Assembly: GCA_029194535.1 (NCBI GenBank)
Contig: JARFXR010000001.1
Span: 1,992,721-2,056,720 of the forward strand
Source of the DNA: Nitrospira sp.
Lineage (GTDB): Bacteria > Nitrospirota > Nitrospiria > Nitrospirales > Nitrospiraceae
DNA length: 64,000 bases
Direction of reading: 5' to 3'
The notes under the pieces were generated by a model. The model saw nothing but the letters and a program-made list of their open reading frames with translations, was not told the DNA's origin and did not search any database. Shown here piece after piece: positions 39,372 through 49,948 of this stretch; the first letter of the stretch is position 1; every line of letters begins with the position of its first letter. A program made the translations under genes and the position numbers.

Positions 39372-39632
39372 ACTTTGGAATGAGCGGGAATCTAGGAAAT
39401 AGTAGGACGAGCGTACTACTTATTCGGACAGTGACGCAAGCGCCTGGATCATCGCCGCGTGAGTGCCATGTGGGCGACGCCTGTTTTCCAGGCCTGTGGC
39501 ACAACCGTGATTTATCGGGTGACTTAAATAGGGACTGGCCGTTCAAGCATGTGGAATCTCATTGCGATTTAGGCTACCGTGCGGGAAACCGTCGATTGCC
39601 ACAAGTCAGTGTCGCGTGATTCAACGAGCAAA

Positions 39633-40355
39633 ATGAGTTGGGAATCATCTATGGACCGTGAGTTTCCTGGGGCTGTGCCACAGGACCGCTTCGTCGCCCA
39701 CTCGTCTGAGCAACTGAACAGGCACGGATTTCGGGCGGAAAATACGATCGCGTTTGCCAGCGTCTGTCGCGACGAGGTCGCCTTCTCCCTGGCAGAAGAG
39801 GTAGAGAAAACGTGGGGAGAGATATTCATGTTTTCCAGCCTCGGCGGAATGCTGACTCTGGGGAAGACCGGGTTCTTGGCCGCTCAGCAGCATGCTCCGA
39901 TTGAACATGGCCGAGAGCGATATGTCTATTACGCTTTGCCTCACATCGCGATCGATGCTCAGGGAAAGTTCGGGATCTATTTTCGTCCCGGTCGCCAGAA
40001 GCCCTCCCACGCCTGCGGGGCTTTGGTGGCCTTTCAACACGAACTTGAGACAGGGTCTCTCGAATTGGCGCTCGATCCTGATGACCTGGAGCAAAGCGTT
40101 CTCAAACAACATCTGCTGCGCAAGCTCCGGTACGGCGACGTCCCGAATCTACCATCGCTGACCAGAATCGCCCATACGGTCATCCTTGAAGAGCTCGAGC
40201 GGATGATTCGGCTGACTGTCGATCCCGCGCGAAGCGATTATGGCGTGTTCACCGGGATTCAGATCCATGGCCCTGACGGCCGACACTTTGTGTGGCCGTG
40301 GACGGCCTGTGTGGTGGTAAACGGAAAACAGGAAAGCCTACCGGGTGGTACGTGA
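39633..40355 (+). CDS. LCIB-type carbonic anhydrase-like protein
   Basis: 240-residue protein resembling the limiting-CO2-inducible B (LCIB) family, a zinc-dependent carbonic anhydrase-like group first known from algae. Seen: FASVCRDEV (Cys45, Asp47), FSSLGGMLTLGKTGFLAAQQHAP, LPHIAID (His104) and SHACGALVAF (Cys128). The family is reported to bind zinc by two Cys and one His, which these three residues match in order and spacing. There is no signal peptide, so it is cytoplasmic. The role would be CO2/bicarbonate interconversion, useful for an autotroph. The start is uncertain; ATGs at 39633 and 39651 are both possible. Confidence 0.8.
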   Translation: MSWESSMDREFPGAVPQDRFVAHSSEQLNRHGFRAENTIAFASVCRDEVAFSLAEEVEKTWGEIFMFSSLGGMLTLGKTGFLAAQQHAPIEHGRERYVYYALPHIAIDAQGKFGIYFRPGRQKPSHACGALVAFQHELETGSLELALDPDDLEQSVLKQHLLRKLRYGDVPNLPSLTRIAHTVILEELERMIRLTVDPARSDYGVFTGIQIHGPDGRHFVWPWTACVVVNGKQESLPGGT

Positions 40356-40427: not shown

Positions 40428-40787
40428 TTACTCGGGAAGAGGCTTGTCTAAATCTTCTTTCGTGAGCTTGCCTTCCTCGAGCTTGATGGTGTTCTCAATC
40501 GCCTCGCTCAACGATTCTCCATATCCAAAAACTCGGTAGCTGACATAGGCCGCGAAGCAGGCTGTCGCCAATTCGGCGACGCCGACCAGCATGGCGGCCC
40601 CGAGACCCACGGCGAAACCGGGGATTACTCCTTTGCCCGGAAAAGCGTGAAACAGTTGCCGGGTTCCTTGACCCACCGCTTCCCAGGCTCCTTCCATAGC
40701 CTGAGACGCCCCCTTGCCAATTTCGGCAGCAGAGTCGGTCCATGAAACCGATCTTGTTTCAATCGTGTCAGTTGTGCTCTCTTGCAT
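40428..40787 (-). CDS. Small membrane protein of the metal-compartment locus
   Basis: 119-residue protein with a polar N-terminal half and one long glycine- and alanine-rich hydrophobic stretch (GVIPGFAVGLGAAMLVGVAELATACFAAYVSYRVFGYG; about 55-92), then a charged end. GGAGG five bases before the ATG at 40787 fixes the start. No family is recognised. Glycine-rich membrane helices of this kind can pack against each other in a protein-dense bilayer. Its place next to the HMA-ATPase cluster is the reason for the grouping. Confidence 0.6.
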   Translation of the reverse strand: MQESTTDTIETRSVSWTDSAAEIGKGASQAMEGAWEAVGQGTRQLFHAFPGKGVIPGFAVGLGAAMLVGVAELATACFAAYVSYRVFGYGESLSEAIENTIKLEEGKLTKEDLDKPLPE

Positions 40788-40877
40788 GTCCGCCTCCATA
40801 AGAGAACCATTAAGAGACCGTTTCTGACGGCTACTCTAACTGAAATTCAATGGGCTTGTAAATTGGCCTACGCAATA

Positions 40878-41066
40878 ATGAGGGGAGAGCTTGAGAAAGA
40901 TCGGATTCATTGCGTTCAGGTTCTTGGAGGAGGCCTCTATTTAGTGATTACCGACTAATTGGAGGTCGGTGGGCGGTTCCAGGATTTTGTGGCCGAGGCC
41001 AAAGCTGATCTGGCTCAGAAGAATGGTAAGCCGGGATCCGGATCAACGACGGAGGAGCAAGCCTGA
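40878..41066 (+). pseudogene. Truncated/interrupted paralogue of the small DUF5132-like protein
   Basis: In one reading frame from an ATG at 40878 the sequence runs through a TAA at 40956-40958 to TGA at 41064-41066. The part before the stop contains VLGGGLYL, and after it VGGRFQDFVAEAKADLAQKNG. These match, in order, IKGGMYLF and AGEQFKDLVAEAKADLAKQNG of the intact protein at 45268-45489. So this is a decayed copy, about 4 kb away and on the opposite strand, with a nonsense change and small deletions. Confidence 0.72.
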
Positions 41067-41189
41067 GTAGCATTGCGTTTGTACCGTCCATCCCCCTGCC
41101 TCGTGGGATTTCCCAACGACAATGCGTCAATAATTCAAAATAGTCTTACAGGTGGAGTGAGCGAGAAATGAGCTCAAGAACTCACCCGA

Positions 41190-41843
41190 TTAAATTTCTT
41201 GATGAGTGCGGCGATCTTGGGATCGAGACAGGCGGGTTAATAGGATGAGGTCTCGCAACGGGAGGACGAGCCAGAAAAGGAGCGCGACCTCAATGCTCAG
41301 GAAGGACAGAACAATACTCCCTAGCGCGACTCCAGGACCTGTATAGGCTGTCCACCAAGGGATTTCAGCCCAGGTTCCGTCCGATTCCTTGTTTCGCCAT
41401 TCTTCTCTTGCCAGCACGTAATGTCCGAGCACGGTCAGCGACAATGACGACAATCCAAGATTGGAAGAAAAGATGATCGCGGCGATGCGATCGCCCTCAT
41501 AATGGCCGATCAAGGAAGCCGCGTAGGGCGTCAGCGAAATAAAGAACAGATGGACAAGGTTCAACCCCAGAGCCCATTCGTCACACAGGACCGCCGACTG
41601 GAAGATCCGGTGATGATTGACCCAGAAGCGGGCGATCAGAAGAAATCCGACGGTGTAGGCGACAAAGTTGGGAACTTGCTGGACCAAGTCCTGCGTCAGC
41701 TCGGAATCGGTGATCCCTGGAACTTCCGGAACTTTGAGATCCAACACGAGCAGGGTGAGGGCGATCGCATACACGCCATCCGAAACGGCGCAGAGGCGTT
41801 CATGTGTGTGCGAGCGTTTCAGAAACAGGTGCAGGGTTTTCAC
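41190..41843 (-). CDS. TMEM175-like (DUF1211) potassium channel
   Basis: 217-residue membrane protein of the bacterial TMEM175 family, lysosome-type K+ channels. The hallmark is RLCAVSDGVYAIALTLLVLDLKVPEV in helix 1 (FSDGVFAIAxTLLVLD in the family); ARFWVNHHRIF is the second conserved piece. Bacterial members are leak-like K+ channels. Start is GTG at 41843, 22 bp downstream of the HMA-like gene, so co-transcription with the ATPase locus is probable. Charge balancing for metal import would be a natural but unproven reason for its presence. Confidence 0.87.
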   Translation of the reverse strand: MKTLHLFLKRSHTHERLCAVSDGVYAIALTLLVLDLKVPEVPGITDSELTQDLVQQVPNFVAYTVGFLLIARFWVNHHRIFQSAVLCDEWALGLNLVHLFFISLTPYAASLIGHYEGDRIAAIIFSSNLGLSSLSLTVLGHYVLAREEWRNKESDGTWAEIPWWTAYTGPGVALGSIVLSFLSIEVALLFWLVLPLRDLILLTRLSRSQDRRTHQEI

Positions 41844-41865
41844 AAGCAGTCGTCAGCCTCGACGG

Positions 41866-42534
41866 TCACGGCACCTTGCAAACAGAATTCTCCGCTTTCG
41901 TTTTAGGAACCTGCGCGCTAGCTCCAGACCCGTCTCCTGCTTTCGAGATGCCGGCCTTGGCAAAAAAGTAACTTCCCAAGATCAGGAACGGGATACCTGG
42001 AACCAGGGGCACCGGTACCAGAATGGCTCCCACAATCATGCTCACATATCCCGCCGTCCAATAGCCAGATTTGGCCTGTTCGCCTGTCTGAACCGCGCCA
42101 TTGGAATCAGAACTGTCGTAGGTCTTCAGGAATCGCCACGGTTGCAGCCAGTCCCTTGACGACGAGCCGGCTGCATGCGCGTCGTCAGCCGAGGTAGCCG
42201 AGGCGCTTCGCTCGAGATCTTCGTGAGTACGACTTTCAAGGAACCTGCGCAGCGACTGCGAGTTCCACAACGTCGGTTCGTACACCACCGTCACGCTGTT
42301 GCATCCCGTGTTGACCGCGACCTCAATGACGCCGGTTTGACCTGAGAGCAACGCTTGAAGGCCCTTCCCCAGCTGAGAGTAGGCCTTGAGCGCCGGTACG
42401 CGGAGCCGGATACGACCTGGAAGAGAATGGATGACACGAGTGGCGGCCAAAGGTGTGTCAGACTCAGGCGCGAGGGAGTGATTGCTCTCCCTGTCAGCCG
42501 GCACATCGGATGCGCTCAAATCCTCGATGGCCAT
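41866..42534 (-). CDS. HMA-like R-motif domain with C-terminal membrane hairpin (FezC-like candidate)
   Basis: 222-residue protein. Residues 33-100 form a degenerate heavy-metal-associated-like domain without CxxC that starts VIHSLPGRIRLRVPALKAYS, nearly the same as both N-terminal domains of the ATPase encoded just upstream. After a Ser/Ala linker, a membrane hairpin follows (GYVSMIVGAILVPVPLVPGI, PFLILGSYFF; about 157-193). The shared PGRxRLR motif is the type I associate with Fez ferrosome proteins. It may dock to the ATPase or build the compartment membrane. It is 13 bp from the ATPase stop. Confidence 0.7.
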   Translation of the reverse strand: MAIEDLSASDVPADRESNHSLAPESDTPLAATRVIHSLPGRIRLRVPALKAYSQLGKGLQALLSGQTGVIEVAVNTGCNSVTVVYEPTLWNSQSLRRFLESRTHEDLERSASATSADDAHAAGSSSRDWLQPWRFLKTYDSSDSNGAVQTGEQAKSGYWTAGYVSMIVGAILVPVPLVPGIPFLILGSYFFAKAGISKAGDGSGASAQVPKTKAENSVCKVP

Positions 42535-42547
42535 TTGTATGACCTGA

Positions 42548-45106
42548 TCATCCGGCGAGGATCACCTTCTCATCCACAGGAGCGGGTAAGGGCCTTACGG
42601 TTTCACGCGCCGTGCAGATGACCTTGACGGGCCGCTGTTCCATGATTGGACGGAGGCCGTTCATCGTCGCGATGATCGCCGAGCCGTTGCTGAGCAAGGT
42701 GGCTCCGATCGGTCCGAGTAGGCCGATGACGGCCAGGCCGAGGGCGATTGTGTTGGGAATGGAGATAATTTTCCAGTTTTGCTGGATCAACGACACGGTT
42801 TCTCGTCCGATGTCGATCGCGAGCGGAACCTTCCAAAGACCACCATGCAAGAGGACCACCGGAGCCGTTTCCCTGGCCGCCTCCGTCCCGCCTTCGACCG
42901 CGATGCCCACATCGGCATATGCCAGCATCGGGGAATCGTTGATCCCATCCCCGACCACGGCCACCTTGTAACCCTGTGATTGGAGGCGCTCGACCGTTTT
43001 GGACTTTTCGCCCGGGAACACCTCCGCCTCGTATTCCGTGATGCCGATCTCTTCGGCAACCTGCCGCGCGACATCTTTGTGATCACCCGTCAGCATGACG
43101 ATGTGCTTGATGCCGCGTTCGCGCAGCGCCTGGACGACCTCTTGCGCTTCCGGTCGCAAGGGATCAGAGATCGCGAGGAGACCGATGATCGATCCGTCCC
43201 GCGCGACACAGAGCGGCGAGACCGCACGTCGCTGCAGATCCGCGATGCGCTCTCCCGCGTCCGATGAGAAGGTCACGCCGCGTTGCGTCATGAACCGAGG
43301 ACTGCCGACAAGGATGACTGCGCCGTTGACAAGGGCCTCGACTCCGAGGCCCAAGGTATACTCCGAAGCCGTGCGCTCAGGAATCGTCAGACGTCTCGTC
43401 TCAGCCGCCCGAACAACGGCGTCGGCCACGGGATGTGTCAGGCGCAGCTCTGCCGAGGCGGCCAAAGCCAAGACCTCGTCGGAGGTCCAGGATTCAAACG
43501 GCACCACCTCGATGACATCCGGATGCCCTGTGGTGAGCGTGCCGGTCTTGTCGAAGACGACCGCATCGACTTCTGCCAGAGTTTCGAGGTGCCGCCCTCC
43601 TTTGATCAGAATACCGTTCCGGATCGCCTTCGTCATGGCGGACAGCACCGTTGTCGGTGCGGCGATTCGAATCCCGGTTCCGTAATCGACGATCAGCACC
43701 GCGGCCGCACCGGGGATCCCGCCGCCGCCGGCTGCGGCGAACGCGCCGCCCAGGAAGCTGTAGGGCACAAGATCATTCGCCCACTTGACGGCGTAATTCT
43801 GTATTTTGGTTTCGCGAGCCGGCGCAGCCTCGACGAGACGTAGAATCTGGCCCGCCTCGGTTTCGTTTCCGATGCGCTCGGCGCAAATATACAGCTTTCC
43901 TTCTCGAACGACCGTCGCGGCGTACACGAGGCTACCCTCTTCCTTCTCAACCGGGACCGATTCACCGGTAAGAGCGGCCTGGTCCACCAGGGCTTTGCCG
44001 CTGAGCACCGTGCCATCCACGGCAATGCGCTCACCCGGATAGACAACCACTGTCTCGCCGAGCCGAACCTCCGTCACGTTGACACGTATTTTTTGACCGT
44101 CCCGCACCACCCAGGCTTCGATGTTCTGATAGCCCAGGATCTCCTCGATCGCCTTCTTGGAACGCATCATCGTCAGGTCTCGTATCCAGTCGGCGACGTT
44201 GATCAGCCAGACCATGAAAAGAGCCATGGGGAAGTTGGCTTGCACGACGAGTAAGGAGGTGGCCGAAGCATCGAGCACATCCACGTTCAGCTTGCCGTCT
44301 TCCGACAGCGAGCGATGAGCCCGTTTCAGCATCGGCAATGCGCTAGCCACGAGTAAGACCGGGAGCAACGGAGCCGCCAGGGGTTCCAGCAACAGTGCGA
44401 GGCCGATCCCGGCGCTGGAATACCACAGTTCATTACCGGAGGTTTCCCCTTCAGCAGCCGCTCGACCCGATCTCGTTCCGGTGGACTGATACGCGGAGAC
44501 TTGCTCTACGCCCAACCCCCGTAGCCACGCACAGAGACGCTCGGACGTCCAGAGCGAGGGATCGTACGAGACGGTGACGCTCGCGGACCATTCGCTCACG
44601 CTCACTTCGGTGACCCCGGGTTGATCATGGAGGATCCGCTCCATCCCTTGAGACAGGTCGGAGGAAGTCTTGAGCGCGGGGACCCGCAAGCGCACTCGGT
44701 CTTGAAGACTGTGCACGATACTCGTATCGGCCAGTGTTCCGATGCCACCGACAGAACCGGGGCCGGTCTCGTGAGGGGAAGAATCACATTGAGGGGCCTG
44801 CTTGTCGTCCTGCGGCCGAGCAGTGAGGGAGTTGACTGTCAGACCGCCGAACGTCTGCGGCGCGACGCCCAACGCCGAAGCCATGGATCGCCAGACACCC
44901 GCAGACAAGGTAGTGGGCGAATCAAACTGAACGACGAGACTGCCGATACTCGGACTGAGTGATACTTCTCGCACGGAGGGGATGGACTGGAGGCTCTGTT
45001 CGATGTGTTGCGCGTATTGGCGATTCCTCTTGAGTCGATCCACGCGGAGCCGCACACGCCCTGGTGACGTATGGATCACAGCCACCGTCGTCTGTTCGAC
45101 CGCCAT
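42548..45106 (-). CDS. P1B-type heavy-metal ATPase with two degenerate HMA domains (FezB-like candidate)
   Basis: 852-residue P-type ATPase. Two N-terminal HMA-like domains (about 8-80 and 128-200) lack CxxC and begin with IHTSPGRVRLRV and VHSLQDRVRLRV. The catalytic core has TGES (380-383), phosphorylation loop FDKTGTLTTG (Asp519) and hinge GDGINDSPML. The transmembrane metal site, CPC or SPC in Cu/Zn pumps, reads DYGTGIRIAAP (474-484), with no cysteine. So it is a divergent P1B pump, most like the group that feeds iron into ferrosomes; the transported ion is not decided by sequence. Confidence 0.85.
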   Translation of the reverse strand: MAVEQTTVAVIHTSPGRVRLRVDRLKRNRQYAQHIEQSLQSIPSVREVSLSPSIGSLVVQFDSPTTLSAGVWRSMASALGVAPQTFGGLTVNSLTARPQDDKQAPQCDSSPHETGPGSVGGIGTLADTSIVHSLQDRVRLRVPALKTSSDLSQGMERILHDQPGVTEVSVSEWSASVTVSYDPSLWTSERLCAWLRGLGVEQVSAYQSTGTRSGRAAAEGETSGNELWYSSAGIGLALLLEPLAAPLLPVLLVASALPMLKRAHRSLSEDGKLNVDVLDASATSLLVVQANFPMALFMVWLINVADWIRDLTMMRSKKAIEEILGYQNIEAWVVRDGQKIRVNVTEVRLGETVVVYPGERIAVDGTVLSGKALVDQAALTGESVPVEKEEGSLVYAATVVREGKLYICAERIGNETEAGQILRLVEAAPARETKIQNYAVKWANDLVPYSFLGGAFAAAGGGGIPGAAAVLIVDYGTGIRIAAPTTVLSAMTKAIRNGILIKGGRHLETLAEVDAVVFDKTGTLTTGHPDVIEVVPFESWTSDEVLALAASAELRLTHPVADAVVRAAETRRLTIPERTASEYTLGLGVEALVNGAVILVGSPRFMTQRGVTFSSDAGERIADLQRRAVSPLCVARDGSIIGLLAISDPLRPEAQEVVQALRERGIKHIVMLTGDHKDVARQVAEEIGITEYEAEVFPGEKSKTVERLQSQGYKVAVVGDGINDSPMLAYADVGIAVEGGTEAARETAPVVLLHGGLWKVPLAIDIGRETVSLIQQNWKIISIPNTIALGLAVIGLLGPIGATLLSNGSAIIATMNGLRPIMEQRPVKVICTARETVRPLPAPVDEKVILAG

Positions 45107-45267
45107 GAATCAGTTCTCCTTCCCTCACTGCCCGGTCCGTCCTGTGCTGGGTACCAGTCTTCCTCGGCAACAGAGATTCCCCCCAAGCGGCGATGCCAGG
45201 CCGCATGTGGTTCCCTCTCAGCGTACATTCTCGACATCGCCGGCCACGATGACGCGATTTTTGACCG

Positions 45268-45489
45268 TCACGGTGCTGATTCGTCGTCCTCGACGTCAGG
45301 CTCTTTTGGTTGGGGCTCACCGTTCTGTTTGGCCAGATCGGCCTTGGCTTCAGCGACAAGATCTTTGAACTGCTCTCCTGCTTCGGAGGCCGCTTCGGAG
45401 ACCGAATCGAACAGATACATCCCTCCCTTGATCAGTTCCTTGGCCAAGGGACGCAATGCCGATCCTATGCCTGAAAGAAAATCCGTCAT
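45268..45489 (-). CDS. Small DUF5132-like amphipathic protein (73 residues)
   Basis: 73-residue protein without a signal peptide, with GAGGAGAAA ahead of its ATG. The core LAKELIKGGMYLFDSVSE followed by FKDLVAEAKADLA is an amphipathic helix pair, and the tail is acidic. It is a paralogue of the 89-residue protein at 45704 (LAREVIKGGL followed by LVQEARAEL) and of the pseudogene at 40878. It lacks the N-terminal membrane segment of its longer paralogue. The family (DUF5132-like by my reading) has no known activity. Confidence 0.68.
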   Translation of the reverse strand: MTDFLSGIGSALRPLAKELIKGGMYLFDSVSEAASEAGEQFKDLVAEAKADLAKQNGEPQPKEPDVEDDESAP

Positions 45490-45626
45490 CGGTGTTTCTC
45501 CTCTGCATGCGCTTCATGCCGATGACCGGACACGGGGTCTCCCCCCTGCACCGGTTCCACAGCGCCGGCATGCCTTCAGGGCCGTTGGCTTTCCCCAGAA
45601 CACCCCTTATCTTTTCACACCCTCAG

Positions 45627-45690
45627 GTGTAGGTGCTTGCCGCCAGCGGTCAAACTATGGTTTTCGACCATGCGGTTGGCGGTCCTACAC
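45627..45690. other. 64-nt nested palindrome between the two DUF5132-like genes
   Basis: The arms GTGTAGG (45627-45633) and CCTACAC (45684-45690) enclose CCGCCA/TGGCGG and then ATGGT/ACCAT, each perfectly complementary. It can form one stem with small internal loops, or serve as a dyad for a DNA-binding protein. No T-run follows on either strand, so it is not a standard terminator. Confidence 0.6.
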
Positions 45691-45703
45691 TCCTGCCGGC
45701 TCT

Positions 45704-45973
45704 CTATTTATGTGCCCCGGTTTTCGCCGGCACCGACGCCGCAGTCGAGGTTGATTTTAGTTCCGCCCTCGCCTCTTGTACCAGATCGCTGAGGACGTTC
45801 CCGCTTTCGGAGAATAACGACGCGGCGGAATCCTGAATCACCAATCCGCCCTTGATCACCTCGCGCGCGAGGCTACGGAGAAGCGAGGCGGGGCCTTCAA
45901 CTAATTTCGGAACAGCCTGGGCGATGACTGCACCAGCGACGACTCCGACCACTCCGGTGATGATCGCTTCCAT
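45704..45973 (-). CDS. DUF5132-like membrane protein (89 residues)
   Basis: 89-residue protein starting at the ATG at 45973 with AAGGAGG seven bases upstream. One N-terminal membrane helix (IITGVVGVVAGAVIAQAV) is followed by the amphipathic stretch SLAREVIKGGLVIQDSAASLF and ending DLVQEARAELKS. A Lys/Ser/Thr-rich tail completes it. It shares its helix with two other small genes here. DUF5132 genes, as I recall, are often next to P1B-type ATPases; I cannot confirm this from the window. Confidence 0.72.
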   Translation of the reverse strand: MEAIITGVVGVVAGAVIAQAVPKLVEGPASLLRSLAREVIKGGLVIQDSAASLFSESGNVLSDLVQEARAELKSTSTAASVPAKTGAHK

Positions 45974-46131
45974 GAGATACCTCCTTGCCAGCTCTATCGG
46001 ATTGGATTCAATCAATGCTGACGAATGAGACGGTAGAATAGTAGCCTACTGAAGACTTCGGATGCAATCCTACGCGGATTCATTCGGGAACCATGCACTG
46101 ATCCACAGACTCGATACTCGCCAAATTCAGT

Positions 46132-46160
46132 TTCTTCGCCAACTCTGAATCGGATACAAT
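46132..46160 (+). promoter_or_regulatory. Candidate promoter for parA-like gene
   Basis: A -10-like TACAAT (46155-46160; five of six consensus bases) lies 22 bp before the parA-like start. The region 17 bp further upstream (TTCTTC) is a poor -35. The intergenic region 45974-46181 must also hold the promoter for the divergent DUF5132-like gene. Confidence 0.25.
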
Positions 46161-46181
46161 GCCGCACCGAGAGGGCGCAGC

Positions 46182-46970
46182 ATGAGACGAGTCATTGCCG
46201 TAATCAATCAAAAGGGCGGGAGCGGCAAAACCACGACAGCCGTGAATCTGGCCGCGGCCCTAGGAAAGCAGGATCGCCGAGTGCTCGTTCTGGACCTCGA
46301 TCCGCAAGCCTCCGCTTCCAACTGGCTCGGCATCAAGGACGGGGGGCGAGGATTGCTCGATGTCTTGACCGACGGACTTGCCATCGAGAGGCTGGTTCAA
46401 CCAACGACTGCAGAGGGGGTTGACGTGATCCCCTCCTCGCCGGCATTGGTCGGAGCCGAAAAAGCCCTAGCCGCAGAAATCGGAGCGGAAACGGCATTGC
46501 GGCGGAGTCTTGCAACGCTGGAAGGGCCGTGGCACTACATCCTGATCGATTGTCCTCCCACGCTGGGCATTCTGGCGACCAATGCATTAGTGGCAGCCGA
46601 GGAAGTACTGGTGCCCGTGGAGTGCCATGTCATGGGGCTTGGTGGACTTGCTCGGCTGATGCAAGCCGTCGACATAATCAAGGTAAGGCTGAACTCCACC
46701 ATCCGATTTGCAGGCATCGTCGCCTGCCGAGTCGATGCGCGCACCCGTCATGCGCAGGACGTGGTCGAGCAACTGCGCATCCGTTTCGGCCCCCTCGTGT
46801 ATGAAACGACGATCCGGGAGAATGTTCGTCTTGCGGAATGTCCCTCATTCGGCCAACCCATTACCGCCTATGACCCCTTCTGTTCCGGCTCGGCCGACTA
46901 TCAGAAGTTGGCCAGCGATGTCAGGAGCCAGGAGAATCGATTCATTGCATCAACAACCAGTCTTGCATGA
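46182..46970 (+). CDS. ParA/MinD-family partitioning ATPase
   Basis: 262-residue ParA-type ATPase. The deviant Walker A is KGGSGKTTTAVNLA (residues 11-24), Walker A' is LVLDLDPQASASNWLG, and the switch ILIDCPPTLGILATNALVAA is typical. ParA ATPases form gradients on the nucleoid that move plasmids, chromosomes or protein organelles. No ParB gene or parS is visible; the next gene encodes a small basic protein with a C-terminal membrane helix that may be its partner. It is divergent from the DUF5132-like gene of the ATPase cluster. Confidence 0.9.
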   Translation: MRRVIAVINQKGGSGKTTTAVNLAAALGKQDRRVLVLDLDPQASASNWLGIKDGGRGLLDVLTDGLAIERLVQPTTAEGVDVIPSSPALVGAEKALAAEIGAETALRRSLATLEGPWHYILIDCPPTLGILATNALVAAEEVLVPVECHVMGLGGLARLMQAVDIIKVRLNSTIRFAGIVACRVDARTRHAQDVVEQLRIRFGPLVYETTIRENVRLAECPSFGQPITAYDPFCSGSADYQKLASDVRSQENRFIASTTSLA

Positions 46971-47005
46971 ACGGTCGTGTACCGTCACGAAAGTAAAGGG
47001 AGCAC

Positions 47006-47326
47006 ATGGCCAAACGCAGAACAATCCGAGACAATCCGCTCGACGCAATCGCGCCGGCTTCTACCGCGGGCCAAGGCGACGAGCCTTCTGCGGAGACGAA
47101 GTTCCGGTCCGCCGGCCGAGTCTCCGCCACCAAGACCCCTCAAGCAGCGAGGCCCGCTTCAATCGCGGCCAATCCTGAGAACACCGCGGCTCCCTCTGCC
47201 CATTCCATCCGAACAACATCTGCGGCTCAAGGCGATCTCCTCAGGCGAATAGAGTCCGTGGAGGAGAAGAACGAATTGATGAAATGGTTGGTCTACGGAG
47301 CCATCGGGCTCGCCTTATTGTTGTGA
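47006..47326 (+). CDS. Small basic protein with C-terminal membrane anchor, likely ParA partner
   Basis: 106-residue protein. It begins MAKRRTIRDNPLDAIAP, has a Pro/Ala/Ser-rich disordered middle, then a short helix (GDLLRRIESVEEKNELMK) and ends in a hydrophobic segment (WLVYGAIGLALLL). AAAGGGAG precedes its ATG, 35 bp after the ParA stop. A basic N-terminus that could touch a ParA ATPase and a tail anchor in a membrane is what a cargo adaptor would look like. No sequence family is recognised, so the role is inferred from position and build. Confidence 0.65.
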   Translation: MAKRRTIRDNPLDAIAPASTAGQGDEPSAETKFRSAGRVSATKTPQAARPASIAANPENTAAPSAHSIRTTSAAQGDLLRRIESVEEKNELMKWLVYGAIGLALLL

Positions 47327-47451: not shown

Positions 47452-48510
47452 TCAGGCCGGTAAAAAGAAAAATCCGATGCCGAACATCAGGTAAATGGAC
47501 ACCAACATGACGCCCTCCATCCAATGGCACTCGCCGTCGGCTGTGAGGCGACTGACGACGGCGACGGTGAGGGCGATCGCGATAATTTCAAAGTACGTGA
47601 AATGGAGGTTCATGGGTTGTCCGACCACGTAGCCGAAGAACACGAGAGCCGGCGCGACGAACAACGCCACCTGCGTGCTTGCGCCGACCGCAATTCCAAA
47701 CGCCAAATCCATCTGGTCGTTCCTGGCAAATCGCACGGCATTCATCGCTTCTGCGGCATTGCCGATGAGGGCCAGGAAAATCACGCCTGCAAAGATCGGA
47801 GTGAATCCAATTGCGGCGGAGGCTGGTTCGATCGCCCCGACCAGTATTTCACTCATGATGGCAATCAGCACCGTGACTCCCGCGAGAACGGCGATGGTCT
47901 TGCCCTTGCCCCAACGGCCTTCCTCCTCTTCGACTTGTGTTGTGGTCGGTCCGAACGCACCCGGCTCGGTTTCGATGAGCTGCCGATGGGTTTTGAGCGT
48001 GAACACCAAACTCGCGATGTAGGCGAGAAAGAGGACGAGCGAGATTTCCGTGCTCACTTCACGCTCCTTCCCGGTGGCAAAATGAAAGAGTGCCGGGATG
48101 AGCAGGCCGATTGCTGCCACGAACAGCAGTCCTCCGTTCACGCCTGCAACCGTCTTATTGAACTTTTGGCGGACACGCCCCCACCCTCCGACGATCATCG
48201 ACAGGCCAAGTGAGAACAACAAATTTCCGAGAATTGATCCGGTGATGGACGCCTTCACGACATCACTCAGTCCCTCCTTCAGGGCGAAGCCGGAGATAAT
48301 GAGTTCCGGCGCGTTCCCGAGGGAGGCGCTCATCAATCCGCCGATGGTGGCTCCGACATAAATCGACAGCTGCTCCGTCGCCTGCCCCATCAATCCGGCC
48401 AGCGGGACGATGGCGAGCGCGGAGGCACAAAAGACGGCAATGGGGTTGGCCTCGTACCAGTCCAACGCCAGCGCGACCGGGATGAACACCAGCAACAGAT
48501 TCAGACCCAT
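47452..48510 (-). CDS. CAX-type Ca2+/H+ (cation/proton) antiporter
   Basis: 352-residue CaCA-superfamily exchanger of the CAX family. The two alpha-repeats are clear: GGLMSASLGNAPELIISGFALKEG and FLALIGNAAEAMNAVRFARND, with the GNAPE and GNAAE acidic motifs. About eleven membrane segments. It exports Ca2+ or other divalent cations against protons. The TolC-like gene lies 22 bp upstream on the same strand. Why an antiporter and an outer-membrane factor share a transcript is unclear. Confidence 0.93.
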   Translation of the reverse strand: MGLNLLLVFIPVALALDWYEANPIAVFCASALAIVPLAGLMGQATEQLSIYVGATIGGLMSASLGNAPELIISGFALKEGLSDVVKASITGSILGNLLFSLGLSMIVGGWGRVRQKFNKTVAGVNGGLLFVAAIGLLIPALFHFATGKEREVSTEISLVLFLAYIASLVFTLKTHRQLIETEPGAFGPTTTQVEEEEGRWGKGKTIAVLAGVTVLIAIMSEILVGAIEPASAAIGFTPIFAGVIFLALIGNAAEAMNAVRFARNDQMDLAFGIAVGASTQVALFVAPALVFFGYVVGQPMNLHFTYFEIIAIALTVAVVSRLTADGECHWMEGVMLVSIYLMFGIGFFFLPA

Positions 48511-48532
48511 TGTCCGTCCTGTTCCGTGGGCA

Positions 48533-49948
48533 TCAGAGCATGAGATTGCGCCCGGTCGATCGTTCGAGCCGCAACAAATTTTCGTAGTAACCGAAGAGCG
48601 CTTCTAAATGACTGATCTCCGTGTCACCGTAAGAGCGACGCGCGTTTTCCAAATCCAGGATGCCGATGTCGTTCTTGGCATAGCCTTCCTGCGCTGATTG
48701 GAATACCGTGGTGGCCCGATCGATGGCCCCGCTTGTCGCATCGACAAGTCTCTTTGCGTGTAGGATGTTGCGATAGGCGACACCGACTTCGTTTTGGATC
48801 TGAACCAGAGCCTTTTCCACCTCGGCTTCGGCCGCTCGTGTAGCCACTTCGGCTTCCACGATACCGCCTTGATTCCGGTTGAAAACCGGAAGGGGCACAC
48901 TCAGGCCGAACGCCCATTGCTGCTGGTTGTCTGGACCGTGAGGGCCTTGAACCGCATATCCGAGTTGTGCCGTCACGTTGGGATACGGGATCACTCTGGC
49001 CAGTTGCAACTCAGTCTTTCGTTTGTCACGAACGAGCCGTAGCGCCCGAATGTCGGGCCGATTTTCGGATGCGTACTGCATCAGCTCGGCAAGATTCAAC
49101 TCCAAAGCGCGGTAGATGAGGGGGGTTTCCAAATCGAGCTCGACATCCGGGGACAGTCGCAACATGACTCGGAGGTCGCCCGACGCATCCTCAACCCGTT
49201 GCAGATCGCGCAGCACCTCGGCTTCAGTATTCACAGTCAACAATCCCAGCCTGGTCCGCTCCAGTTCCGACGTGAATTGCTTTTTCTTATCCGGTTGAAG
49301 CAGTTTGACGAGGATGTTCAAGGCACGTTGGTCGATAGTCAGATGCCCGCGTTGCCGTTGCAGGCGAAAATAATTATCCTTGAGCGTGAAACCCAATTGC
49401 CGAACGGCGTCTTCAAACCGGGCCTCGACGGATAGCGCCTCCAATTCGGCCGCACGTATTCTGTAGCCTCTTTTGCCGGCAACCTCGAAAAGCTGACTGA
49501 CGCTCGGGCCGACGGCGCCGCATGTGCTCATGTGACAACCCTGAGTATAGGAACTCAGTGTGTTGACAGCCAGCGTGGGGTTGGGAAAAAGGCGTGCGGT
49601 GATTTGTCGTCCTTTCGCGGCATCGATTCCGTAATGGGCAATGATAAGATCGAGGTTCTGCTTGAGAAACAGGGCCATCGCCTCGTCAAGCGAGAGTTGC
49701 ATGAAATTCGTTGAGGGAGGAAACGGTCCCCGCTTCGGTGTCAGCTCCGGGTACTGGTCCTGCTTGAAAAGACCTTTGAGTATCTGCTCGATCCAGCTAT
49801 CGGCCGTTTCCGTGAAATTCGCGGCCCGCACCGGAGCATCCACAACCAACACCGACGAGGCGATAGCCACCAGGAACACCGAGAGCACTGTCGTCTGAAG
49901 GATGCAACATCGGATCTTTGCAAATCCGGGTCTGCGCTGATCGTTCAT
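48533..49948 (-). CDS. TolC-family outer-membrane factor (CzcC-like)
   Basis: 471-residue outer-membrane efflux protein. A signal peptide (hydrophobic TTVLSVFLVAIASSVLVVDA) precedes two OEP repeats rich in coiled coil; the second has NRPDIRALRLVRDKRKTELQLARV and VFNRNQGGIVEAEVATRAAEAEV. This fits the CzcC/CusC group that completes metal efflux pumps. The inner-membrane and adaptor partners are not in the window. GGAGG is seven bases upstream of the start. It precedes the CAX gene. Confidence 0.88.
   Translation of the reverse strand: MNDQRRPGFAKIRCCILQTTVLSVFLVAIASSVLVVDAPVRAANFTETADSWIEQILKGLFKQDQYPELTPKRGPFPPSTNFMQLSLDEAMALFLKQNLDLIIAHYGIDAAKGRQITARLFPNPTLAVNTLSSYTQGCHMSTCGAVGPSVSQLFEVAGKRGYRIRAAELEALSVEARFEDAVRQLGFTLKDNYFRLQRQRGHLTIDQRALNILVKLLQPDKKKQFTSELERTRLGLLTVNTEAEVLRDLQRVEDASGDLRVMLRLSPDVELDLETPLIYRALELNLAELMQYASENRPDIRALRLVRDKRKTELQLARVIPYPNVTAQLGYAVQGPHGPDNQQQWAFGLSVPLPVFNRNQGGIVEAEVATRAAEAEVEKALVQIQNEVGVAYRNILHAKRLVDATSGAIDRATTVFQSAQEGYAKNDIGILDLENARRSYGDTEISHLEALFGYYENLLRLERSTGRNLML

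Follow-up and report, generated by a model that had tools for sequence, protein, structure and literature searches.

A candidate calcium-handling membrane module of Nitrospira, with a pump from the sister clade of FezB-type ATPases

A locus in the genome of Nitrospira sp. encodes a P1B-type ATPase whose clade has the FezB-type pumps as its direct sister group, together with small membrane proteins, calcium- and carbonate-related neighbours, and a ParA-family ATPase with its candidate partner. The locus lies within the window, the whole stretch of 64,000 nucleotides that was analysed (contig JARFXR010000001.1), and its products may form or organise a membrane compartment that handles calcium. 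The reading proposed here, plausible though short of probable, is that of a sister module of fez that handles divalent cations, Ca2+ being the most likely one, and whose membrane cargo would be positioned by ParA in some lineages. It starts from the observed gene content, synteny, clade position, ParA co-occurrence, and lack of Cys and His at the modelled membrane positions of the pump. The original prediction had placed the locus with the ferrosomes; kinship with that system stands, since the pump clades are sisters and the arginine-motif HMA_2 domain is common to both, but this is not a fez locus.

Gene content and layout

Open reading frames and profile matches confirmed the predicted genes as real, with the corrections given below. 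The pump (852 aa; 42548..45106, minus strand) was identified by TIGR01525 (502 bits), its tree and TM4/TM6 alignment, and its P1B fold, and carries two N-terminal HMA_2 domains; both had been expected to open with a PGRVRLRV-type motif, but the second repeat begins HSLQDRVRLRV instead of PGR. The adjacent gene (41866..42534, minus strand) encodes a 222-aa protein which, as foreseen, joins a related HMA_2 domain (PF19991, 32.7 bits) to a C-terminal DUF454-like membrane hairpin. A structural model of this protein matches HMA domains over residues 39-104 (Z up to 9.6, rmsd 1.8 over 66 residues) and is of low confidence past about residue 115. The TMEM175-type K+ channel (217 aa; 41190..41843, minus strand) was also correctly recognised, with PF06736 at 92 bits against a cut-off of 25.

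Three small proteins encoded on the minus strand had been considered related, which holds for two of them. The 73-aa amphipathic protein at 45268..45489 (PF17195, 40.7 bits) and the protein with a glycine-rich membrane segment at 45704..45973 (PF17195, 22.8 bits, narrowly missing the cut-off of 25) both belong to DUF5132. The 103-aa open reading frame of the latter extends to 46015, although its start is more likely at 45973, because a Shine-Dalgarno-like GGAGGT precedes the ATG and homologues begin MEA.... The third, a conserved 123-aa membrane protein (40428..40799), forms a separate family that matches no Pfam entry, has homologues at the locus in eight relatives and is marked by the motif FFHxxPGxG...YRxFxYGESLxEAIExTIKFExGKL; it was rejected as a DUF5132 relative for want of any DUF5132 similarity. 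No relevant paper on DUF5132 or PF19991 was found in the literature searched.

On the plus strand, the gene for a ParA-family ATPase of a locus-specific type (262 aa; 46182..46970; PF13614, 167 bits) is followed by that for a candidate partner of 106 aa (47006..47326), which comes after ParA in six loci. The conserved unit exceeds the span originally predicted, as it also includes an LCIB-type beta carbonic anhydrase (258 aa; 39579..40355, plus strand; PF18599, 179 bits), a CAX Ca2+/H+ exchanger (352 aa; 47452..48510, minus strand; TIGR00378, 330 bits, cut-off 211) and a TolC-family outer-membrane efflux protein (471 aa; 48533..49948, minus strand; PF02321, 144 bits). Synteny of TolC is kept in L023 and L142, and homologues occur in L028, L035 and L037. 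The same order and content of genes is seen again in further genera, as well as in another family, and thus the grouping is not due to chance. Repeats across the locus amounted to short, chance-like matches.

Clade position and membrane site of the pump

In a tree of 42 proteins, the window pump fell in a clade of its own, characterised by D[YF]GTG in TM4. Its sister, with support of 99-100/97-99, is the clade of FezB-type pumps (TM4 D[YF][SA]C, TM6 HN), and CPC pumps fell outside. The FezB-type clade is anchored in this tree by FezC-like neighbours (L046, L152), not by experimentally tested FezB sequences. Forcing the window group into that clade was rejected (AU p 6.7e-11), so that the predicted identity of the ATPase as FezB was not upheld. 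In the TM4/TM6 alignment the window pump shows DYGTG and SNGS, its clade mostly [SN]NGS in TM6, and all FezB-type rows HN, the TM6 motif of P1B-6 pumps (PMC9374683). A membrane site lacking Cys had been proposed and was verified: the five Cys residues (107, 192, 408, 633 and 831) all lie outside TM4, and in the structural model neither Cys nor His appears at the membrane positions. It counts against the proposed reading that none of the characterised pumps of the P1B family is known to us to have an oxygen-only site.

HMA_2 with the arginine motif occurs in the window pump, in the 222-aa protein and in the FezC-type proteins of L046 and L152. In a cyanobacterial cluster that also encodes a DFGTG pump and DUF5132, HMA_2 is joined to a diacylglycerol kinase, which ties the domain to membrane lipid, and DUF5132 and HMA_2 were found as well next to HMA_2-fused P2A Ca2+-ATPase-like pumps.

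Calcium neighbours and the ParA pair

Judged by gene context, the neighbours of window-clade pumps point to calcium or another divalent cation and to carbonate, not to iron; FezB-type loci hold FeoA, siderophore or iron-ABC genes. CAX is present in 10 of 17 window-clade loci versus none of 12 FezB-type loci (Fisher p 0.001, kinship ignored), and is missing beside L024, L038, L140, L141, L162 and L163. These gaps, and the ability of CAX proteins to carry other divalent ions, count against the proposed reading. The idea of a common Nitrospira gene lying nearby by chance was discarded, as it is another CAX copy (about 57% identical) that is common, the locus-type copy being restricted to carriers (G000, G001, G021 and G057 among 61 relatives). 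A second CaCA exchanger adjoins three distant Nitrospirota loci, and CorA lies beside ParA in L037 and L156. The LCIB-type carbonic anhydrase is encoded next to the ATPase in L023, L028, L032, L034, L035, L037 and L142, eight loci with the window; it is missing from the entire G021 genome, and was dismissed as a module-exclusive marker on account of its presence in 38 of 246 genomes, many of them without HMA_2. A calcium exchanger and a carbonic anhydrase, supportive although non-defining features of intracellular calcium carbonate (iACC), are thus both linked to the module. A literature search found no report of calcium inclusions in Nitrospira, nor do we know of a calcium mineral in this genus.

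The main rival explanation does without an organelle and sees an efflux platform at the plasma membrane: DUF5132 proteins would cluster the pump in the inner membrane, TolC and CAX would complete an export route for divalent cations, and ParA would only space or place the clusters. Although somewhat unlikely, it draws on the TolC gene, located 22 bp upstream of CAX, and on the small membrane proteins that flank the pump. In mycobacterial effluxosomes, likewise, PacL proteins, small membrane proteins encoded beside the pump gene, cluster the P1B-family pump CtpC (PMC9374683), and foci arise in the membrane with no vesicle involved (PMC9374683, PMC13043812); CtpC, however, has a CPC motif, DUF1490 and zinc, whereas the window locus has DYGTG in place of CPC and, among its proteins, no match to DUF1490 or DUF6110. 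Moreover, the locus genes examined include neither a periplasmic adaptor nor an RND gene, export needs neither a carbonic anhydrase nor TMEM175, and organelles are made by the sister clade.

Genome comparison indicates that the ParA pair is a genuine but optional partner of the pump locus. Locus-type ParA occurs in 4 of 246 Nitrospirota genomes, in each case with the ATPase locus beside it (4/4, shared ancestry uncorrected), and in 3 of 61 relatives, again all with the ATPase locus; the predicted co-occurrence was therefore confirmed, but in a subset of ATPase carriers only. The ParA of carriers scores 450-506 bits against the locus-type model and the background copy of relatives about 215-255 bits, which led to rejection of the locus ParA as the background chromosomal ParA/Soj. 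The deviant Walker A motif (KGGxGKT) is present, KGGSGKTT being invariant in four aligned orthologues. The 106-aa protein, predicted as a small, basic, tail-anchored protein, does have a conserved basic N-terminus (MxKRxTIxxNPLD in six loci), followed by a linker, a short helix and a short hydrophobic C-terminus. ParA is missing from a complete genome of the same genus (G001) which keeps the rest of the locus, and hence positioning is not essential.

This absence, extending to distant relatives, and the shifting location of ParA, which flanks the TolC/CAX block on one side or the other depending on lineage, would suit an independent passenger, for instance an old plasmid partition remnant unrelated to the pump locus. 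Such an origin is improbable, as all four carriers have ParA at the pump locus, the linkage is kept in two arrangements across two families, and ParA divergence parallels that of the ATPase (identity correlation over six loci r 0.97; 15 pairs, non-independent); furthermore, no consensus parS was found within the window, and the partner, with its hydrophobic C-terminus, is not ParB. The pair resembles the McdAB system of carboxysome positioning, in which a ParA and a small partner, basic at its N-terminus and probably disordered, are also encoded beside cargo genes (PMC13052382). It differs in that the window ParA is nearer to Soj (181 bits against the solved structure) than to McdA (58 bits), and in the partner's hydrophobic C-terminus, which suggests a membrane cargo.

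Related systems and proposed working

That the locus is a true ferrosome locus, an iron store with a diverged FezB, is very improbable in spite of the sister relation and of an arginine-motif HMA_2 carried, as in ferrosomes (FezB P1B-6 ATPase, FezC), by both the pump and a membrane protein encoded nearby: strict fez assignment was ruled out by the tree, by the motif (TM4 without Cys, TM6 without HN) and by the missing FezC, a DUF4405-like cytochrome (PMC10979944) with no match among the locus proteins and two weak matches on another contig of the genome. The conserved neighbours include no iron gene, and no site within 3 mismatches of the E. coli Fur box, which may differ from that of Nitrospira, was found in the window. 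In another Nitrospirota genome (L152), HMA_2+DUF4405 occurs in a fez-like operon of its own. The window locus has instead DUF5132, the ParA pair and calcium/carbonate neighbours.

The CoBaHMA family, which includes calcyanin of intracellular calcium carbonate formation, comprises HMA-like domains with no Cys pair, conserved basic residues, and calcium and lipid-kinase links. The HMA_2 of the window shares these traits, but the main component of its locus is a pump. No paper with CoBaHMA was found in the literature searched.

For the divalent-cation module we infer an ion, a transport direction, a vesicle, lipid docking and positioning as follows. The D[YF]GTG pump, by means of an oxygen-only membrane site, would clear the ion from the cytosol and deliver it to a vesicle or a patch of membrane. 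The arginine-motif HMA_2 domains of the pump and the 222-aa protein would act as docking domains, for anionic lipid or for one another, instead of binding soft metals, and DUF5132 and the 123-aa proteins may cluster or curve the membrane. CAX would exchange Ca2+ for H+, TMEM175 would carry a K+ current in compensation, and the LCIB-type carbonic anhydrase would provide bicarbonate/carbonate or balance pH, a role that makes a calcium-carbonate store possible. The 106-aa protein would sit with its C-terminus on the cargo and stimulate ParA with its basic N-terminus, thereby spreading the cargo across the nucleoid. The fullest form of this proposal is unlikely. In it, Nitrospira and relatives would have a further lipid-bounded metal organelle, the second among bacteria: a store of calcium, possibly as calcium carbonate, made by a sister of the ferrosome machinery and spaced by a dedicated ParA through a membrane-anchored adaptor.

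If the proposal is true, the locus would offer a candidate ParA system for membrane cargo and, to our knowledge, the first ParA system known for a lipid-bounded organelle. The ferrosome would then belong, as one branch, to a larger family of metal modules built around pumps, the two sister branches differing in the Cys and His of the membrane site and hence probably in the ion they handle. The locus would also open a genetic route to intracellular calcium stores beyond the cyanobacteria, where the marker gene known so far was not found; the cyanobacterial calcyanin gene ccyA is reported to be absent from magnetotactic iACC formers (PMC11773610).

Gene content and layout of the locus

The open reading frames of the original prediction were found in the window at the positions it gave. 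Pfam and NCBIfam place the 852-aa pump (42548-45106, minus strand) in the heavy-metal P-type ATPase subfamily, with two N-terminal HMA_2 domains, and further assign a 222-aa HMA_2 plus DUF454-like protein (41866-42534, minus strand), a TMEM175 channel, two DUF5132 proteins and a ParA ATPase. Neither the 123-aa nor the 106-aa protein had a family match in Pfam. Two of the three small proteins described as related are so, the third being unrelated, and the PGR-type start claimed for both pump repeats fails in the second, which has QDR.

The conserved unit is wider than first described, extending to an LCIB-type beta carbonic anhydrase on one flank (39579-40355, plus strand) and to a CAX Ca2+/H+ exchanger and TolC on the other (47452-49948, minus strand). 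Minus-strand gaps measure 22 bp (TolC-CAX), 13 bp (ATPase to 222-aa gene) and 22 bp (222-aa gene to TMEM175), and ParA (46182-46970, plus strand) with the 106-aa gene (47006-47326, plus strand) lies in opposite orientation between CAX and a DUF5132 gene. In G001, a genome of the same genus without the ParA pair, TolC, CAX, both DUF5132 genes, the ATPase, the HMA_2 gene and TMEM175 are co-directional; a sulfatase and an alginate-export-like porin split its TMEM175 gene from the LCIB and 123-aa genes (locus L023, 12767-16269). In G057, from another family, two transposase-like genes that resemble IS3 by eye separate the CAX/LCIB half from the TolC-ParA half (L156, 217-1382).

Residues 39-104 of the modelled 222-aa protein match HMA domains (Z up to 9.6, rmsd 1.8, 66 residues), and its arginine motif is predicted to lie near the Cys-pair site of copper-binding HMA domains. 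HMA_2 domains of this arginine-motif kind are presumably those named CoBaHMA, reportedly first seen in calcyanin of cyanobacteria forming calcium carbonate, with anionic-lipid binding proposed. The cyanobacterium Gloeothece PCC 7822 has a cluster (L163, 8899-17440) with a DFGTG pump, DUF5132, a 522-aa HMA_2 protein and a fusion of HMA_2 with a diacylglycerol-kinase-type lipid kinase.

The pump and its relatives

A tree of 44 pumps resolved three separate groups, named by their TM4 motifs D[YF]GTG (17, including the window pump), D[YF][SA]C (12) and CPC (15), each cut off by a branch with nearly full support, and joined the first two with support of 100/99. Adding plasmid-borne pumps of named organisms gave the same outcome, the window's clade gaining those of Gloeothece (DFGTG) and Deinococcus (DFASG). 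The D[YF][SA]C clade was labelled FezB-type from gene neighbours rather than from experimentally tested FezB sequences: two of its pumps, from Ectothiorhodospira (L046) and a Nitrospirota genome (L152), adjoin HMA_2 proteins with a weak DUF4405 match, as would suit FezC, a DUF4405-like cytochrome (PMC10979944). Other members adjoin FeoA-domain proteins, siderophore receptors or an iron ABC transporter. A constraint placing the window subgroup's five pumps inside this clade cost 168 log units (AU p 6.7e-11), partly because it splits the D[YF]GTG clade. The ATPase, originally proposed as FezB, is placed outside the FezB-type clade and is, to judge from its sequence, a sister of FezB and not FezB itself.

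In the TM4/TM6 alignment every FezB-type row carries a TM4 Cys as well as HN in TM6, the latter a trait given for P1B-6 pumps (PMC9374683). Rows of the window clade show Thr at TM4 and [SN]NGS at TM6, except for that of Deinococcus, with Ser and HG. The predicted model of the window pump has the P1B fold, and its membrane site, in a model based on TM4 and TM6, offers oxygen ligands only; we infer that such a site would suit a hard cation more than it would Fe2+, Cu+ or Zn2+. To our knowledge, oxygen-only pumps of the P1B family are uncharacterised.

Several related clusters were seen elsewhere. In Desulfovibrionaceae (L039-L043), HMA_2-type pumps that differ in TM4 motif (CPC, DYSC, DFAC) stand two or three to an array, accompanied by small HMA_2 proteins and a FeoA-domain protein. 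A plasmid of Azospirillum brasilense carries what looks like a fez operon (L166, 5100-9139): six genes, for HMA2, four small proteins and a FezB-type pump, next to an iron ABC transporter. Other Nitrospirota lineages (L137, L138, L139, L147, L154) have HMA_2-fused P2A Ca2+-ATPase-like pumps of about 1040 aa, adjoining DUF5132, a stand-alone HMA_2 protein and an S-adenosylmethionine-synthetase-like gene (judged from N-terminal sequence).

Distribution and the ParA pair

HMA_2 is sparse, occurring in 7 of 61 relatives and 41 of 246 sampled Nitrospirota genomes. The window-type locus is also present in G001, G021, G057 and G236, the last from a different genus within the window's family; a collection scan found it in named Nitrospira/Nitrospirales genomes too (L032, L034, L035, L037). 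G236 holds two module copies (L141, L142), with ParA, CAX and LCIB at one only.

A ParA search model built from four locus proteins gave matches of 450-506 bits in exactly four of the 246 Nitrospirota genomes, all with the ATPase at the same place, so that the predicted co-occurrence of the ParA pair with the ATPase holds; the background ParA copy of most relatives scored about 215-255 bits. ParA identity tracks ATPase identity over six loci (r 0.97, 15 non-independent pairs). The gene after ParA always starts with MxKRxTIxxNPLD and has a short hydrophobic C-terminal segment, a weak membrane anchor in the window's 106-aa copy. On these grounds the pair is a real, though optional, component of the locus. 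Among solved structures, those nearest to this ParA belong to a Soj-type segregation protein and a ParA family protein. Carboxysomes are spaced by McdAB, in which a ParA works with a partner whose N-terminal region is basic (PMC13052382); for the window's pair we would naturally infer a similar role on a putative membrane cargo.

Calcium and iron neighbours

The neighbourhood of the window clade points to calcium, not iron. At 330 bits, the locus CAX exceeds its curated cut-off of 211; among 61 relatives its close orthologues are confined to G000, G001, G021 and G057, and a paralogue about 57% identical is common. Ten of the 17 window-clade loci carry CAX, as against none of the 12 FezB-type loci (Fisher p 0.001, uncorrected for ancestry), and in three loci of distant Nitrospirota (L144, L151, L153) the pump gene adjoins CAX and a second CaCA exchanger. 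LCIB-type carbonic anhydrase lies beside the pump locus in eight loci, the window counted, and is present in Nitrospirota without the module as well; CorA adjoins the ParA pair in L037 and L156. DUF5132, by a profile drawn from part of the window-clade set, was detected in 17/17 window-clade, 2/12 FezB-type and 6/7 P2A loci. In further Nitrospirota clusters, DUF5132 and HMA_2 accompany an HMA_2-fused pump that matches a P2A Ca2+-ATPase best in NCBIfam, below cut-off. Intracellular calcium carbonate has been reported in another Nitrospirota lineage (PMC12710302), and the chemistry is therefore known in the phylum, from that other lineage.

The chief alternative is a plasma-membrane efflux platform, for which PacL/CtpC effluxosomes are a precedent; we consider it rather unlikely. 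With the pump outside the FezB-type clade, a true iron ferrosome is improbable. Our preferred reading, itself tentative, is that the locus may be a sister of the ferrosome module, of calcium type, that works on a putative membrane cargo.
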